Source of the DNA: Epibacterium ulvae
GTDB lineage: Bacteria > Pseudomonadota > Alphaproteobacteria > Rhodobacterales > Rhodobacteraceae
NCBI RefSeq assembly: GCF_018678075.1
Contig: NZ_JAHHIR010000013.1
Location: forward strand, 62,001-126,000
DNA length: 64,000 nucleotides
Reading direction: 5' to 3'
Shown one piece after another: positions 22,696 to 61,967 of the stretch. Made by a program: the position numbers and the translations under genes. Position 1 is the stretch's first letter. Every line of letters begins with the position of its first letter. The notes below the pieces were generated by a model, which saw nothing but the letters and a program-made list of their open reading frames with translations, ran no database searches and was not told where the DNA came from.

Positions 22696-23988
22696 ATGAC
22701 CACGACCCGTGATCCCGGTTTCTTCACCCAATCCCTGTCCGAGCGCGACCCTGAACTCTTTGAATCCATCACAAACGAGCTGGGCCGCCAGCGTGATGAG
22801 ATCGAATTGATCGCATCGGAAAACATCGTCTCTGCCGCTGTTATGGAAGCGCAAGGCTCTGTCTTGACCAACAAATACGCCGAGGGCTATCCTGGCCGTC
22901 GCTATTACGGCGGCTGCCAACATGTCGATGTTGCCGAAAATCTGGCAATCGACCGCGCCAAAGAACTGTTTGGCTGCGAATTCGCCAATGTTCAGCCGAA
23001 TTCCGGTTCGCAAGCCAACCAAGGCGCGTTCCAGGCGATGATCCAACCCGGCGATACCATCCTGGGTATGAACCTGGCCTCCGGCGGTCACCTGACCCAC
23101 GGTGCCGCCCCGAACCAGTCGGGCAAATGGTTCAACGCGGTGCAATACGGCGTGCGCAAGCAAGACAACCTGATCGATTATGATGAGATCCAGGAGCTGG
23201 CGACCGAGCACCAGCCAAAACTAATCATCGCCGGTGGTTCCGCCATCCCGCGTCAGATCGATTTCGCCAAGTTCCGTGAAATCGCAGACAGTGTTGGCGC
23301 GTTCCTGATGGTCGACATGGCGCATTTCGCGGGTCTGGTTGCCGCCGGTGAACACCCCTCGCCTTTCCCTTACGCGGATATTGCGACCACCACGACCCAT
23401 AAAACCCTGCGTGGCCCACGTGGCGGCATGATCCTGACCAACAACCCGGATCTGGCGAAAAAGATCAACTCTGCCATCTTCCCCGGCATCCAAGGTGGCC
23501 CGCTGATGCATGTCATCGCTGGTAAAGCCGTAGCCTTTGGCGAAGCGCTGAAGCCTGAGTTCAAGACCTACCAAAAGCAAGTCCGCGCCAATGCAGTTGC
23601 GCTGGCGGATGAGCTGATGAAAGGTGGCCTGGACATCGTCACCGGCGGTACCGACACCCACGTGATGCTGGTGGATCTGCGCCCCAAGAAAGTCACCGGC
23701 AATATCGTCGACAAAGCCTTGGGCCGCGCGCATATCACCACCAACAAAAACGGCATCCCGTTTGACCCGGAAAAGCCCACCGTAACCTCGGGCATCCGTC
23801 TGGGCACACCGGCAGGCACCACCCGTGGTTTTGGTGAGGAAGAATTCCGCGAGATCGCCCGCTTGATTGTCGAAGTTGTTGATGGTCTGGCCGCAAACGG
23901 CGACGACGGAAACACAGAAGTCGAAGCGGAAGTTCGCGCCAAAGTCGCCGACCTCTGCAGTCGCTTCCCGCTGTACCCGAACCACTAA
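22696..23988 (+). CDS. glyA: Serine hydroxymethyltransferase
   Basis: A 430-residue PLP enzyme that converts serine and tetrahydrofolate to glycine and methylene-tetrahydrofolate. The PLP-lysine lies in the [14 protein letters not shown] motif, and the N-terminal [23 protein letters not shown] and [11 protein letters not shown] segments are diagnostic. I chose the ATG at 22696 (MTTTRDPG), preceded by GGAGCGAGC; the frame is open upstream to 22639. A strong terminator follows. Its product feeds metF, which lies elsewhere in this window. Confidence 0.97.
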
Positions 23989-24011
23989 AGTTCGCAGAAC
24001 CACGAAAATTC

Positions 24012-24044
24012 AACCGCCGCCCTTCTCTTAGGGCGGCGGTTTTC
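24012..24044 (+). terminator. Terminator of glyA
   Basis: A perfect eleven-pair stem (24012-24022 with 24031-24041, eight-base loop) followed by T residues, 24 bases after the glyA stop. Confidence 0.9.
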
Positions 24045-24089
24045 TGTTGGCATGTCTCACTTTGTCTTTTGTAGGATCTGGAGGGCCAG

Positions 24090-24190
24090 AAAACAGGCAC
24101 TCCCGCGCCCTGACCTCGCATCAAAGATGCGATGCCACAGGCCTTGGGCATCGCATCGCGTCCCTACGGGCCACGATGCGGTCCGGGCAC
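24090..24190 (+). repeat. Overlapping-stem repeat, copy A
   Basis: First of three related repeats. After AAAACAGGC and a CTCCCG box come three helices. Helix 1 is 24116-24122 with 24126-24132 (loop AAA). Helix 2 is 24126-24136 with 24147-24157 (eleven perfect pairs, ten-base loop). Helix 3 is 24153-24179 (GCATCG with CGATGC and CCC with GGG). Helix 2 shares its left arm with helix 1 and its right arm with helix 3, so neighbours cannot form together. It follows the glyA terminator and is co-oriented with glyA. Confidence 0.75.
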
Positions 24191-24228
24191 ATGCCAAACT
24201 TATCTTCTAGAAATGCTATGTCAAAGGA

Positions 24229-24316
24229 ACGCCGCCTGCACCGCGCAATAGCGCGGTGCCACGCCCAACGCTTTGGGGGTTTTCTTTGAAAACGTTCAAA
24301 GGGGCGGGAGCGCCTG
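24229..24316 (-). repeat. Overlapping-stem repeat, copy B
   Basis: Second copy, inverted relative to copy A. On the minus strand it begins ACAGGCGCTCCCGCCCCTTTG, then helix 1 (GTTTTC-AAA-GAAAAC, 24279-24293), the conserved AAAGCGTTGG loop and helix 3 (nine pairs, 24238-24259). The right arm for helix 2 no longer matches, so this copy is partly decayed or a variant. The 19-mer TGCCACGCCCAACGCTTTG at 24257-24275 is identical, in inverse orientation, to 61277-61295. It begins ten bases after the stop of the co-oriented gene at 24327. Confidence 0.75.
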
Positions 24317-24326
24317 TGGTCGGCTT

Positions 24327-24692
24327 TCAGACGAACCCGCGCAAACGCAGGACAGTAATCAACAGCACTGCAACGGCCAGAACCGCAAATCCCATGCTGC
24401 CCAGCACATCCAGTACCCGTCCTCGACGTCGGTCTGCGACATTGATGTTTTTCAAATGCCCGCGCACTTCTTTGGCGGCCTTGCGCAAGGGTGCCTGGTC
24501 CACGGTCATCTGCAACTTTGGATGCGCCAGCAACGGCAGCGCCGCAGCAAGTTTCAACCCCTGCCGATAGATCCTGCGCGGCAACTGGCGGCGACGCTTT
24601 TTCAACACGGTTTCAAGATCGCCGCGCCCACCCTCTCGGCTGCGTAACAAGCCATGAAGCTCTTCAATCTCTGCAACCAAATCCTGCGCCAT
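24327..24692 (-). CDS. Small membrane-anchored protein of unknown function
   Basis: A 121-residue protein that I do not recognise. It starts with an acidic helix (MAQDLVAEIEELHGLL), continues with a basic middle part (VLKKRRRQLPRRIYRQ) and ends in a single hydrophobic segment (SMGFAVLAVAVLLITVLRL) that should anchor the C-terminus in the membrane. I chose the ATG at 24692; the frame is open to 24755 with less plausible sequence. It is transcribed on the opposite strand to its neighbours. A tail-anchored topology is inferred from the sequence. Confidence 0.65.
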   Translation of the reverse strand: MAQDLVAEIEELHGLLRSREGGRGDLETVLKKRRRQLPRRIYRQGLKLAAALPLLAHPKLQMTVDQAPLRKAAKEVRGHLKNINVADRRRGRVLDVLGSMGFAVLAVAVLLITVLRLRGFV

Positions 24693-24824
24693 GTGGGAGT
24701 GCCCTGCTTCGCCCAAATCTTGGCGCACCCTATCAGCAGCTCCTGCGCGCTTCAATCGCGGCCACCGGGAAAACGCCGGTGAAAAACACTGGCTCCTGTT
24801 TCAAATCAAAGCTATCACGCCCTT

Positions 24825-26617: not shown

Positions 26618-27260
26618 GTAAGCGGTGTTTCCGCCCCACGCTTACGGCATATCGCCTGATCTGCGTTTCAGAGTCCTCATTGTTTTTGGGGGAATTTCTC
26701 GATGGGAGCTATAAGCGCGTTTCTGGCGAATGTACCTCGGCGTTCGGACGGCAAGCGGAAGTGGCCGACGGATCAGAAGGCGCGGATTGTGGCGGAGACA
26801 TTGCTGAACTGAGGGCGATCATCCGCGCGCAGTGGCATCAGAATGCGCGGCTCGAAGCTCTGGTTGCGTCGTTGAAGAAAGCTCTCTTTGGTGCCAAGTC
26901 CGAGAAGATCGACACTGCCCAATACGAGCTGGAACTCGAAGACATCGAGACCGCCATCGCGCAGGTGGAAGCCGATGAACGCACAGCACCCATGCGGTCT
27001 CCAAAACCTCGCCAAACCAATCGCGGATCATTGCCCAAACATCTGGAGCGGGTGGAAGTGGTCATTGAACCCGAGCCATCCTGCGCCTGCGGAACTGAGC
27101 GTCATGTCATTGGCGAAGATGTCAGCGAACGGCTGGATATCATCCCCGCCCAGTTCCGCGTGATTGTCACCTGTCGCCCCAAATACGCTTGTCGATCCTG
27201 CGAGGCGGGATTGCCCAAGCTCCTGCAGCGCACACATCATTGCGGGCGGCGTGCCACCCG
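26618..27260 (+). mobile_element. IS66-family remnant
   Basis: One end of an IS66-type element followed by internal pieces. The end carries an imperfect palindromic segment, GTAAGCG to CGCTTAC (26618-26645). About 57 bases later come the start of tnpA and then the 5' part of tnpC, so tnpB and most of both flanking genes are missing. The homology stops near 27258, inside the 3' end of the opposite-strand SGNH gene. The element has clearly lost activity. Confidence 0.75.
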
Positions 27261-27279
27261 CACAGCCGGACCATCATAG
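26680..27279 (+). pseudogene. tnpC: IS66 TnpC transposase, 5' fragment
   Basis: From about 26797 the frame encodes the N-terminal part of an IS66 DDE transposase: coiled region, FGAKSEKID, LPKHLERVEVVIEPE, and the zinc-binding region with CACG and CRSC. The catalytic DDE domain is missing. Near 27225-27235 the homology moves to another frame (AHIIAGGVP), so there is also a frameshift before the junction at about 27258. The first part of the open frame (26680-26796) is read out of the tnpA frame and is not family sequence. Confidence 0.75.
26702..26812 (+). pseudogene. tnpA: IS66 TnpA fragment
   Basis: A 36-codon fragment reading ...RRSDGKRKWPTDQKARIVAE..., the N-terminus of the helix-turn-helix protein of IS66 elements. 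It ends at a TGA that lies at the junction with the tnpC fragment, so a deletion has removed the rest of tnpA and all of tnpB. Confidence 0.65.
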
Positions 27280-59944: not shown

Positions 59945-61153
59945 ATGCAGCAGATTCCAAACGTTCACGAAGCTGAGCCCATCCCCGAAGCCGCCCGCGC
60001 CGAGATTGACGCGCTGCTGCAGTCGGGTGACCTGTTCCGCTACACCGCGCCGGAAAACGCCCCTGTGACCTTGTTGGAGCAGGAATTTGCCAAGCTTCTG
60101 GGCACCAAATACGCGCTGGCCGTCTCATCCTGCTCGGCCGCACTGTTTCTGTCGCTCAAGGCGCTTGGCCTGCCGCGCGACGCCCGGGTGCTGATCCCGG
60201 GCTTCACCTTTGCCGCCGTGCCCTCAGCCGTGGTCCACGCCGACTGCATTCCGGTTCTGTGCGAAGTGGGTGAAAACTATCGCATCGACATGGCGGATTT
60301 CGAGGCCAAGCTGGCCCAGGGCATCCAAGCCGTGATCATCAGCCACATGCGCGGTCATACATCAGATATGGATGCGATCCTGTCGCTGTGTGAGGCGCGT
60401 GATATTCCAGTGGTTGAGGACGCAGCCCATTCGCTTGGCACCACCTGGCACGGACGCAATATCGGTACCATCGGCCAGGTCGGCTGTTTCTCGTTTCAAA
60501 GCTACAAGATGATCAACGCAGGCGAAGGCGGCATTCTGGTCACCGATGATGCAGACCTTGTGGCGCGGGCGGTGATCATGTCCGGTGCCTATGAGCACAA
60601 TTGGAAGAAACACAAAGGTCCCGAGGGACAAAACGATCCGGAACTGGCCGAGGCCTTTGCCAAATGGCAAAATCAACTGCCCCTGTATAACCTGCGCATG
60701 TCCAACCTGTCGGCGGTAGTGATCCGCCCGCAAATCCCAGAACTGGCACGCCGGGTGACCGATGGGCTGGCCAATCACGATTATGTGGCTGCGCAGCTGA
60801 ACGCCCACCCGCATTTCCACGTGCCCGCGCCGCTGGCGCCAGAACGCCGCGCGCCGGATTCGATCCAGTTCAATCTGGTCGATCTGTCAGATGCCCAGAT
60901 CCAGGCCTTCTCAAACGCCTCCGCCGCACGCGGGGTCAAGGTTCAGATCTTTGGCCGCTCAACCGACAACGCGCGGGCCTTCTGGAATTGGCAGTTTATA
61001 GGAGAGGTGCCCGAACTTCCGCAAACCCGCGCGATGTTGATGAACGCCTGCGACGTCCGCCTGCCCGTGCTCCTGACGCGAGACGAGCTTGACGTGATCC
61101 TCTCGGTCCTGACCGGTGCGATGTCGTACACCCTTGCCAAAGAAGCCGCCTGA
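59945..61153 (+). CDS. DegT/DnrJ/EryC1/StrS-family aminotransferase
   Basis: A 402-residue PLP enzyme. The PLP Lys is in FSFQSYKMINAGEGG, and VVEDAAHSLGTTW holds the Asp and aromatic contacts. Family members aminate keto-sugars or related carbonyl compounds. There are no sugar-biosynthesis neighbours; instead it follows the GS-like ligase cluster and a hairpin. A role in the same amine pathway is plausible but only by position. Length is slightly above the family norm. The start has AGGA upstream. Confidence 0.88.
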   Translation: MQQIPNVHEAEPIPEAARAEIDALLQSGDLFRYTAPENAPVTLLEQEFAKLLGTKYALAVSSCSAALFLSLKALGLPRDARVLIPGFTFAAVPSAVVHADCIPVLCEVGENYRIDMADFEAKLAQGIQAVIISHMRGHTSDMDAILSLCEARDIPVVEDAAHSLGTTWHGRNIGTIGQVGCFSFQSYKMINAGEGGILVTDDADLVARAVIMSGAYEHNWKKHKGPEGQNDPELAEAFAKWQNQLPLYNLRMSNLSAVVIRPQIPELARRVTDGLANHDYVAAQLNAHPHFHVPAPLAPERRAPDSIQFNLVDLSDAQIQAFSNASAARGVKVQIFGRSTDNARAFWNWQFIGEVPELPQTRAMLMNACDVRLPVLLTRDELDVILSVLTGAMSYTLAKEAA

Positions 61154-61227
61154 CAATCTAGACGCAACCGCGCCGCGCGCCAGTGCGGCGCTTGGCCCAA
61201 CTGTGTGGTTGGATCTGTGATTCAAAC

Positions 61228-61322
61228 AAAACAGGCGGGAGCTCCCGCCCCTTTGACATGGCAGTAAACTGCCACGCAAAGCGTTGGGCGTGGCAGCGGG
61301 CTGGCGCCCGCTGCGGTCGCGC
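61228..61322 (+). repeat. Overlapping-stem repeat, copy C
   Basis: Third copy of the repeat at 24090 and 24229. It starts with AAAACAGGC and the palindrome GGCGGGAGCTCCCGCC. Helix 1 is 61259-61264 with 61269-61274 (loop TAAA). Helix 2 is 61269-61277 with 61288-61296 (nine pairs, loop AAAGCGTTGG). Helix 3 is 61293-61301 with 61306-61314 (nine pairs, four-base loop). Helix 2 shares an arm with helix 1 and overlaps helix 3, as in copy A. It lies 74 bases after the DegT stop and is co-oriented with it. Confidence 0.8.
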
Positions 61323-61343
61323 AAAACGAAACCAGGCCAAACC

Positions 61344-61376
61344 AAAAAGGCCGCTCTCCTCCGGAACGGCCTTTTA
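61344..61376. terminator. Bidirectional terminator between DegT gene and phaR
   Basis: The arms AAAAAGGCCG and CGGCCTTTTA pair around a 13-base loop, giving T runs on both strands. It can serve phaR (ending at 61407) and the DegT transcript from the other side. Confidence 0.85.
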
Positions 61377-61406: not shown

Positions 61407-61967
61407 CTACTTCAGTTTGGACAATTTTTCCTGCAACTCCGCCAGCTGTTGTTTGATGGTGTCCAGGTCATCTTCTTCATCCGTTGCACCACCTTCACGC
61501 TCTGGACTGCCGCCGCCGGTCCATCCGCTGGAAAACCCGCCAGTCATCGCTTTCAAAAACGCTTCCTGCTGCGCCTTCATGGCTTCAAAGCCGGGCATCT
61601 GCGCCATCGGGTTCATAGCCGTCATGTTCTCGACCATCTTCTCCTGGCTCTCGCGCAGCATATCAAACGAAGACTGCAGGAAATGCGGCATCACGCCACC
61701 ACCGGGCACCATATAGCTGCGCACCAGATCGTTCAGCACATTGACAGGCAGCACATTCTCTCCGCGGCTTTCGTGCTCCGCTATAATCTGCAACAGATAT
61801 TGCCGCGTCAGGTCATCTCCTGACTTCAGGTCGACAATCTGGACCTCCCGACCTTCGCGAATAAAGCCCGCTATATCTTCCAAAGTGACGTAGTCACTGG
61901 TCTCCGTATTATAGAGCCTGCGACTGGCATAGCGTTTAATTAGCAAGGGTTTGTCCTGATCCGCCAT
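61407..61967 (-). CDS. phaR: Polyhydroxyalkanoate synthesis repressor
   Basis: A 186-residue PhaR. The N-terminal DNA-binding region (LLIKRYASRRLYNTETSDYVTLEDI) is followed by the PHB-accumulation regulatory domain (LLQIIAEHESRGENVLPVNVL) and a Met/Gln-rich region. PhaR binds phasin and synthase promoters and is released when it binds nascent PHA granules. I chose the ATG at 61967, preceded by GAGAGGG; the open frame continues upstream without family sequence. Its likely targets are the three CTGC-N3-GCAG sites ahead of the phasin gene. Confidence 0.94.
   Translation of the reverse strand: MADQDKPLLIKRYASRRLYNTETSDYVTLEDIAGFIREGREVQIVDLKSGDDLTRQYLLQIIAEHESRGENVLPVNVLNDLVRSYMVPGGGVMPHFLQSSFDMLRESQEKMVENMTAMNPMAQMPGFEAMKAQQEAFLKAMTGGFSSGWTGGGSPEREGGATDEEDDLDTIKQQLAELQEKLSKLK

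Follow-up and report, generated by a model that had tools for sequence, protein, structure and literature searches.

A two-hairpin repeat at gene 3' ends in the Roseobacter group, a putative bidirectional transcript-end element without a U-tract

The window analysed here, a stretch of 64,000 nt from Epibacterium ulvae, holds four copies of a two-hairpin repeat, A and B at one site and C and D at another. The repeat is genuine and is widely distributed at gene ends in the Roseobacter group. We read it as a putative bidirectional, U-tract-less transcript-end element that ends or guards transcripts, is lineage-specific and is maintained by its hosts, and we give this reading a probability slightly below one half (about 0.47). 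Since the copies keep to gene 3' ends, the best reading is that the family acts where transcripts end, in termination or 3' protection. Just behind the stop codon, a transcript from either strand would form two stable hairpins: H1, closed by fixed boxes, and H2, a nearly perfect GC stem. This block would most likely stop or stabilise transcript ends, above all between convergent genes, and one block, or a pair sharing H2, would serve both directions. We infer that transcripts end at the element, be it through a tail-less hairpin, through Rho or because they are trimmed back as far as the hairpins; a protein may also read the fixed boxes. It counts against the best reading that a generic tail-less terminator would need no fixed boxes.

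Plan of the unit and its spread among genomes

Side-by-side comparison of copies gave one order of parts: CTCCCGC, a base X, a variable stem-loop, a base Y and TTGGGC, which together make H1, followed by NNNGC and the GC-rich hairpin H2. In the outer stem of H1, CCCG pairs with TGGG, a G-T pair being innermost, and a C-T mismatch and then the X-Y pair follow; the constant G-T (G-U) pair adjoins the mismatch. This pair (8/95 in alignment A2) was kept in 84/85 rows and in 52/52 copies of other genera, and the constancy of the pair and of the boxes is partly by construction, since the covariance model R1 was seeded with 27 copies of the own genome chosen by exact boxes. The leading box had been predicted as ACAGGC/CTCCCG. 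Its CTCCCGC part is common to the family, as is TTGGGC (read CTTGGGC in about a quarter of copies), while ACAGGC is not shared, ACAGGCNCTCCCG occurring exactly twice in the genome, in copies A and B.

Scanning the window with R1 (filters off) returned four copies with E values from 4.3e-13 to 2.5e-9, the next match having E 0.28 (Table 1). The original prediction had counted three; copy C was present as described, and the additional copy D lies head to head with it between a DegT-type aminotransferase gene and phaR, its H2 end toward the aminotransferase gene and its model match 11 nt from the end of that gene. The tail-to-tail arrangement of A and B, with glyA on one side and a convergent small gene on the other, was as had been stated, and the model match of B starts 14 nt past the end of the small gene, for which no Pfam match was found. 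An Rfam cmscan of the window found one tRNA only, and permissive Rfam scans of 23950-24400 (best E 0.49) and 61200-61360 (best E 0.22) stayed far below gathering scores.

Table 1 Repeat copies and neighbouring features in the window (bits and E values of copies are from model R1)
Feature	Position	Strand	Details
Copy A	24098..24179	+	56.1 bits, E 2.5e-9; box CTCCCGC from 24100; TTGGGC ending 24149 closes H1; H2 about 24152-24180; X-Y = G-C; pattern CTCCCGC-N24..54-TTGGGC matched at C29:86100-86149
Copy B	24312..24233	-	75.4 bits, E 4.3e-13; box from 24310 downwards; TTGGGC ending 24263; H2 24259-24238; X-Y = C-G
Copy C	61240..61319	+	69.7 bits, E 5.4e-12; box from 61242; TTGGGC ending 61289; H2 about 61293-61314
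Copy D	61243..61165	-	59.2 bits, E 6.2e-10
glyA, serine hydroxymethyltransferase, upstream of copy A	22696..23988	+	PF00464, E 4.6e-172
Intrinsic terminator of glyA, before copy A	24012..24041		computed terminator scan
Weak terminator-like site in copy A, antisense	24110-24095	-	consensus scan
Weak terminator-like site in copy B, antisense	24264-24277	+	consensus scan
Small gene upstream of copy B	24327..24755	-	relatives in genus
Fragment that we take, by eye, to resemble the start of an IS66-type transposase	26680-27279	+	
DegT/DnrJ-type aminotransferase gene, 3' end toward D and C	59945..61153	+	PF01041, E 1.1e-58
phaR (PHB/PHA accumulation regulator), convergent partner at the C/D site	61407..61967	-	PF07879 + PF05233; start codon picked by us

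Copy A does contain the three helices first described (inverted repeats I6, I4 and I5, of which I6 and I5 are the H1 and H2 arms), and the middle helix, which overlaps H1 and H2, has 8 bp in A and a weaker 7 bp in C. The proposed mutual exclusion of stems therefore stands for these copies but not for the family: a run of at least 7 was found in 2/156 copies, and the mean run was 3.90, compared with the 3.86 obtained by combining H1 of one copy with H2 of another, so a switch between exclusive stems was rejected as a family trait.

Half of the parsed copies (78/156) are paired, i.e. they lie within 300 nt of another copy, and 21 tail-to-tail pairs share a single H2 (13 C-G/G-C, 4 C-G/C-G and 4 other mixtures by X-Y type). 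These shared-H2 pairs (e.g. L067, L076, L093) mostly join unlike types; like types would let the H2 palindrome extend into H1. The partner in several pairs (L067-, L093-, L117-, L098+) belongs to a subtype whose long H1 (GCGCCCGCAGGTGCC ... CCTTGGCGGCCTTGGGC) is nearly identical among them, a recurrence that suggests copying or gene conversion.

The pattern CTCCCGC-N24..54-TTGGGC matched the genome 87 times against 12 for the reversed pattern. As the original prediction required of a true family, a search with the covariance model found further copies: with 150 of 2579 candidates scored, the own genome gave at least 84 matches at E<=1 and at least 81 at the stricter E<=0.012, and relatives gave more. 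Up to 150 candidates per genome were scored for the own genome and the genus, 115 for the class sample and 15 for the family sample, stricter filters being used for the larger samples, and because of these limits all copy numbers are lower bounds. Matches occurred in 18/18 genomes examined of the genus (at least 10 to at least 95 each), in one genome of the family from outside the genus that was included in the genus sample (at least 3), and in 0/12 genomes outside the family. The family sample gave matches in at least 48/296 genomes, and the distribution in the family is patchy. Among the 40 genomes of the class sample beside the own one, a single marginal match of 38 nt (E 0.008) was obtained, and the one same-family genome among them had no match. 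Eighty named glyA loci, searched together with flanks of at most 3 kb, yielded one match only (E 0.36), and a literature search over openly licensed papers found no description of the repeat.

Plasmids also carry the element. Among the records searched with the model (5 of 9 from a composite query and one from a single-copy search), the 1.26-Mb plasmid of Tritonibacter mobilis F1926 held 22 matches, and five Parasedimentitalea and Leisingera plasmids held 1-2 each. Single-copy plasmid searches returned nothing, one short match or six records, and a blastn search of phages with one composite returned nothing. Four of the six records, from Streptomyces, were set aside as chance, since they matched at a GC hairpin within coding genes. 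In L224, L335, L336 and L337, which come from two Parasedimentitalea and two Leisingera plasmids, a caspase-family gene stands on one side of the elements and a convergent DUF4384 gene, followed by ExbD genes, on the other.

Compensatory change and strand use

Covariation was assessed on 161 copies: 84 of 87 matches from the own genome (two overlap duplicates and one match at E 0.014 excluded), 25 of 26 from the sister species G002 (one cut by a tile end) and 52 from other genera; 156 of these were parsed for X-Y and stem counts. X and Y pair in 150/156 copies (C-G 112, G-C 36, A-T 2), compared with a mean of 94.8 and at most 114 pairs in 10,000 shuffles of Y. Model-free pattern matches behaved alike, with pairs in 29/30 against a shuffle mean of 16.0 and a maximum of 24. 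The covariation score was 0.349 in own copies (0.108 when shuffled, 0.046-0.110 with the partners slid), 0.372 in other genera (0.105 when shuffled) and 0.333 in 26 copies at the orthologous phaR site (0.110 when shuffled). In none of the three sets did any of 500 shuffles reach the observed score, in alignments that were fitted to the model and so favour the structure, the inner stem of H1 being poorly aligned (48-57% of cells paired). The claim that stem sequences differ between copies while pairing is retained is thus borne out: compensatory change exceeds chance, and the structure is selected.

The same was seen among orthologues. At the phaR site, D was found in 16/30 loci from the own genus and from genera G290, G236 and G096, whose genomes were picked for high copy number, and C was found in 10. 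The H1 arms there are almost wholly replaced with pairing retained, and at X-Y of copy C three species have C-G, at least five have G-C and one has an unpaired G-A. Between the own species and G002, 22 orthologous copies at 15 sites differ by 6 double Watson-Crick changes in H1 and by 5 in H2, the latter effectively 3, because two lie in one shared stem and are counted twice. Single-sided changes led from a pair to G-T 4 times, to A-C 6 times and to another mismatch 9 times, and from a mismatch to a pair 5 times. Identity was 87% in copies against 65% in 25 nt upstream and 72% in 20 nt downstream, a comparison that favours the copies, since they were chosen as model-found in both species.

Covariation by itself does not tell RNA from DNA, nor does it prove an RNA of one strand, and stem pairs were compared with U-tract terminators of the same loci under one strand-symmetric rule. 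H2 held 2 G-T and 5 A-C mismatches in 1476 pairs (2 and 5 of 1072 in single copies, 0 of 404 in shared stems), and the first set of U-tract terminators held 37 and 8 of 1290. When a larger terminator set was split by A-tract, one-way terminators had 41 G-T and 6 A-C of 1116 pairs and two-way terminators, whose hairpins can be counted from both strands, 3 and 3 of 721. H2 differs from the one-way set (p 2e-13) and not detectably from the two-way set (p 0.34); because its wobble counts match those of two-way terminators, H2 behaves like a hairpin needed on both strands. H1 showed 11 A-C against 1 G-T and folds better as antisense (mean z -2.95 vs -2.03, 84 copies), neither of which is predicted for a sense-only RNA; both may reflect its C-rich composition. 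Looser mismatch counts (H1 G-T 5 vs A-C 53; 21 vs 36) were swamped by that composition and were not relied on.

An RNA confined to the sense strand was not supported, given that G-U shows no excess over A-C (H2 2 vs 5; H1 1 vs 11), and the stems fit pairing on both strands, as bidirectional hairpins do. What had been taken for the covariation of a functional RNA is therefore genuine compensatory change, but it leaves a one-strand RNA unproven and comes with no G-U excess on the sense strand. This is a warning that strong covariation together with a position at gene ends does not alone mean a one-strand RNA. Counting wobble pairs against one-way and two-way terminators is an inexpensive way to discriminate and could be applied elsewhere too.

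Gene ends, terminators and inheritance

Relative to crude codon-score gene calls, which are not an annotation, 0/84 own copies lie inside genes. The upstream gene is co-oriented in 68/83 own copies, with the model match starting at a median of 33 nt past the stop and within 60 nt in 51/68; the corresponding values are 19/23 and 37 nt in the sister species and 41/51 and 20 nt in other genera. Each copy had been placed behind the 3' end of a co-oriented gene, and this holds loosely: copy A lies 109 nt behind glyA, past the glyA terminator, and D intervenes between copy C and the gene upstream of it. Of the own copies, 46 lie between convergent genes, 19 in tandem regions with the genes, 12 in tandem regions against them, 3 between divergent genes and 4 where one side is uncalled. 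Over all three sets, orthologues included, tandem regions hold 37 copies with the genes and 26 against (p 0.21), and this weak orientation bias implies that the unit is used both box-first and H2-first.

The element is not a canonical intrinsic terminator (GC hairpin plus U-tract), TTTT following H2 within 26 nt in 14/156 copies and AAAA preceding the box within 20 nt in 27/156. A consensus scan marked four terminator-like sites, compared with 0.7 in shuffles; the glyA terminator, read from either side, accounts for two. At convergent ends of the own genome and G002, an intrinsic terminator was present within 60 nt in 2/61 cases with the element and in 21/44 without (p 4e-8), a figure that is partly trivial because the element fills the space. 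Within 300 nt the counts were 13/61 and 28/44 (p 2e-5), a difference carried by G002 (0/16 vs 17/24) and borderline in the own genome alone (13/45 vs 11/20, p 0.055). Tandem regions showed no exclusion, with 1/17 against 37/172 at 60 nt (p 0.20) and 6/17 against 59/172 at 300 nt (p 1.0), and the numbers from convergent ends of other genera were too small (2/30 vs 1/8 at 60 nt). The element and U-tract terminators thus largely exclude each other at convergent ends and not at tandem ends. At the phaR site, however, phaR has its own intrinsic terminator before D in 12/16 loci, and in 3/16 (L310, L312, L316) the elements lie between two correctly placed terminators, which counts against the element as a pure replacement of terminators.

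Among the rival explanations a site acting at the DNA level survives best, and we regard it as possible though on balance somewhat unlikely. The repeat would be a REP/BIME-like palindrome bound by gyrase, a nucleoid protein or another DNA-binding protein, its hairpins forming as cruciform or single-stranded DNA and not in RNA. Nearly perfect Watson-Crick stems with no G-U excess on either strand suit such a site, as do the weak tandem orientation bias, the retention of elements between two terminators and the lack of exclusion in tandem regions; BIMEs are described as binding IHF and gyrase, and REPs as binding DNA polymerase I (PMC2817692). Yet two-way RNA terminators show the same wobble pattern, the exclusion of terminators at convergent ends is not what a DNA site predicts, and some loops are strand-specific (H1 AAA 15 vs TTT 3; H2 TGAC 12 vs GTCA 1), others not (H2 AAA 11 vs TTT 10). 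We think it unlikely that the repeat marks a dedicated transcript-end system of the Roseobacter group, in which a putative RNA-binding factor would read the CTCCCGC/TTGGGC junction of H1, including its constant G-U pair and C-U mismatch, and would end or cap transcripts of both strands without U-tracts. If this were true, one block or an inverted pair would insulate convergent genes.

If the repeat were a non-autonomous mobile hairpin resembling REP/RAYT, IS200/IS605 or MITE elements, which spread and settled where it did no harm, this would account for dispersal at 10-95 matches or more per genus genome, for the patchy presence in the family, for inverted composites of mostly unlike types (13 C-G/G-C vs 4 C-G/C-G of 21) and for the avoidance of genes and divergent regions. 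We hold it improbable, as the sites are inherited vertically and are not hopping. Twenty-two of 62 own sites were matched within 800 kb of G002, 6 of them by one flank only, and 15/16 sites with both flanks syntenic are occupied there, two with a different copy number. Orthologues at one site also stay structured across genera, which is unexpected of an inert insertion. In a search confined to the Y1_Tnp family (PF01797), no match was found in the own genome (97% complete), 2/18 genomes of the genus matched, and 5/14 control genomes were positive. Present-day mobility driven by a RAYT was therefore rejected for the own genome, and with it the movement by a REP-type transposase that the original prediction had allowed.

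The only unoccupied syntenic site in G002 is the glyA site. In G002 and some other relatives a DUF817 gene (PF05675; e.g. at L208:2889-3758, and in L209 and L210) separates glyA from the small gene; the corresponding window stretch is 23989-24092, and no match to the DUF817 gene was obtained in the own genome. The DUF817 gene is followed directly by an A-like copy in L210 and by none in L209, and L212 carries an A/B-like pair on the gene's opposite side. From these few genomes, copy A looks like the leftover tail of a lost DUF817 gene, which would explain its place behind the glyA terminator. Behind the small gene, copy B has a counterpart in L209, L210 and L222, and the model matched nothing there in L208, L211, L218 and L223.

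We consider it very unlikely that the elements give rise to small RNAs, 3'-UTR-derived or antisense, that would act in trans by means of the C-rich box. The constant CTCCCGC segment and the strand-specific loops would fit it, but a scan for sigma-70-like promoters found none in 23980-24400 (other promoter types were outside the scan), the boxes pair within H1, and there is no Rfam match. The least probable account, stems kept perfect by template switching in palindromes with no selected function, would explain nearly perfect stems and double changes but would not keep the boxes (constant partly by construction), the G-T at pair 8/95 (84/85 rows) or an identity above that of the flanks.

Comparison with known systems

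Two known classes of repeat were compared and rejected. CIR repeats of Caulobacter with CcrM sites are intergenic inverted repeats in Alphaproteobacteria, and GANTC, the CcrM site, occurs only 3 times in the 12,948 bases of the 156 copies. GTTGGGC fits the attC-like GTTRRRY, but about a quarter of copies read CTTGGGC and the motif order is wrong for an attC-like site.

Hairpin ends without a U-tract, including two-hairpin clusters near the stop codon, are a known form of terminator (PMC8355165, PMC12403871, PMC8269248), and U-tract-less ends are given as 78% of structured ends in Methylosinus sporium (PMC12403871). In a GC-rich bacterium most structured ends can thus lack a U-tract, and there is no settled account of their formation. 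The family offers some 80 natural copies per genome with shared boxes, free stems, both orientations and natural pairs; its about 160 natural variants could be used to ask whether U-tract-less ends need a factor, and the relatives are cultured. I-shaped terminators and hairpin clusters resemble the repeat in having GC hairpins without a U-tract near the stop, two per cluster (PMC8269248, PMC12403871, PMC8355165). They are defined by shape, whereas the repeat is a single sequence family in which the boxes and the mismatch pattern are fixed. Between convergent genes, bidirectional terminators share its position at gene ends, its putative use in both directions and its stems almost without G-U; unlike them, the repeat usually has no A/T tracts, and its H2 can be shared by two opposed copies. 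DNA uptake sequences likewise form paired inverted repeats able to make terminators (PMC2267715), while the repeat is a structured 80-nt unit with variable stems.

REP/BIME repeats with their RAYTs are, according to the sections of one study that bear on them, dispersed extragenic palindromes that form inverted composites and have suggested roles in termination and chromosome organisation, as here (PMC2817692). The same sections define a REP by a GT(A/G)G head directly before a GC-rich palindrome, and report RAYTs meeting that study's criteria only from gammaproteobacteria (PMC2817692). Our repeat has no such head, the position logos of the 156 copies showing CTCCCGC and TTGGGC and no GT(A/G)G; it has two hairpins and stems that are free between fixed boxes, and this genome has no Y1/RAYT match. 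REP/BIME-like behaviour is nevertheless seen, the copies being extragenic at gene ends (0/84 in genes) and often close to another (78/156 within 300 nt). Without the tested REP/RAYT marks, head and transposase, the family stands by its behaviour near REP/BIME repeats and near tail-less two-way terminators.
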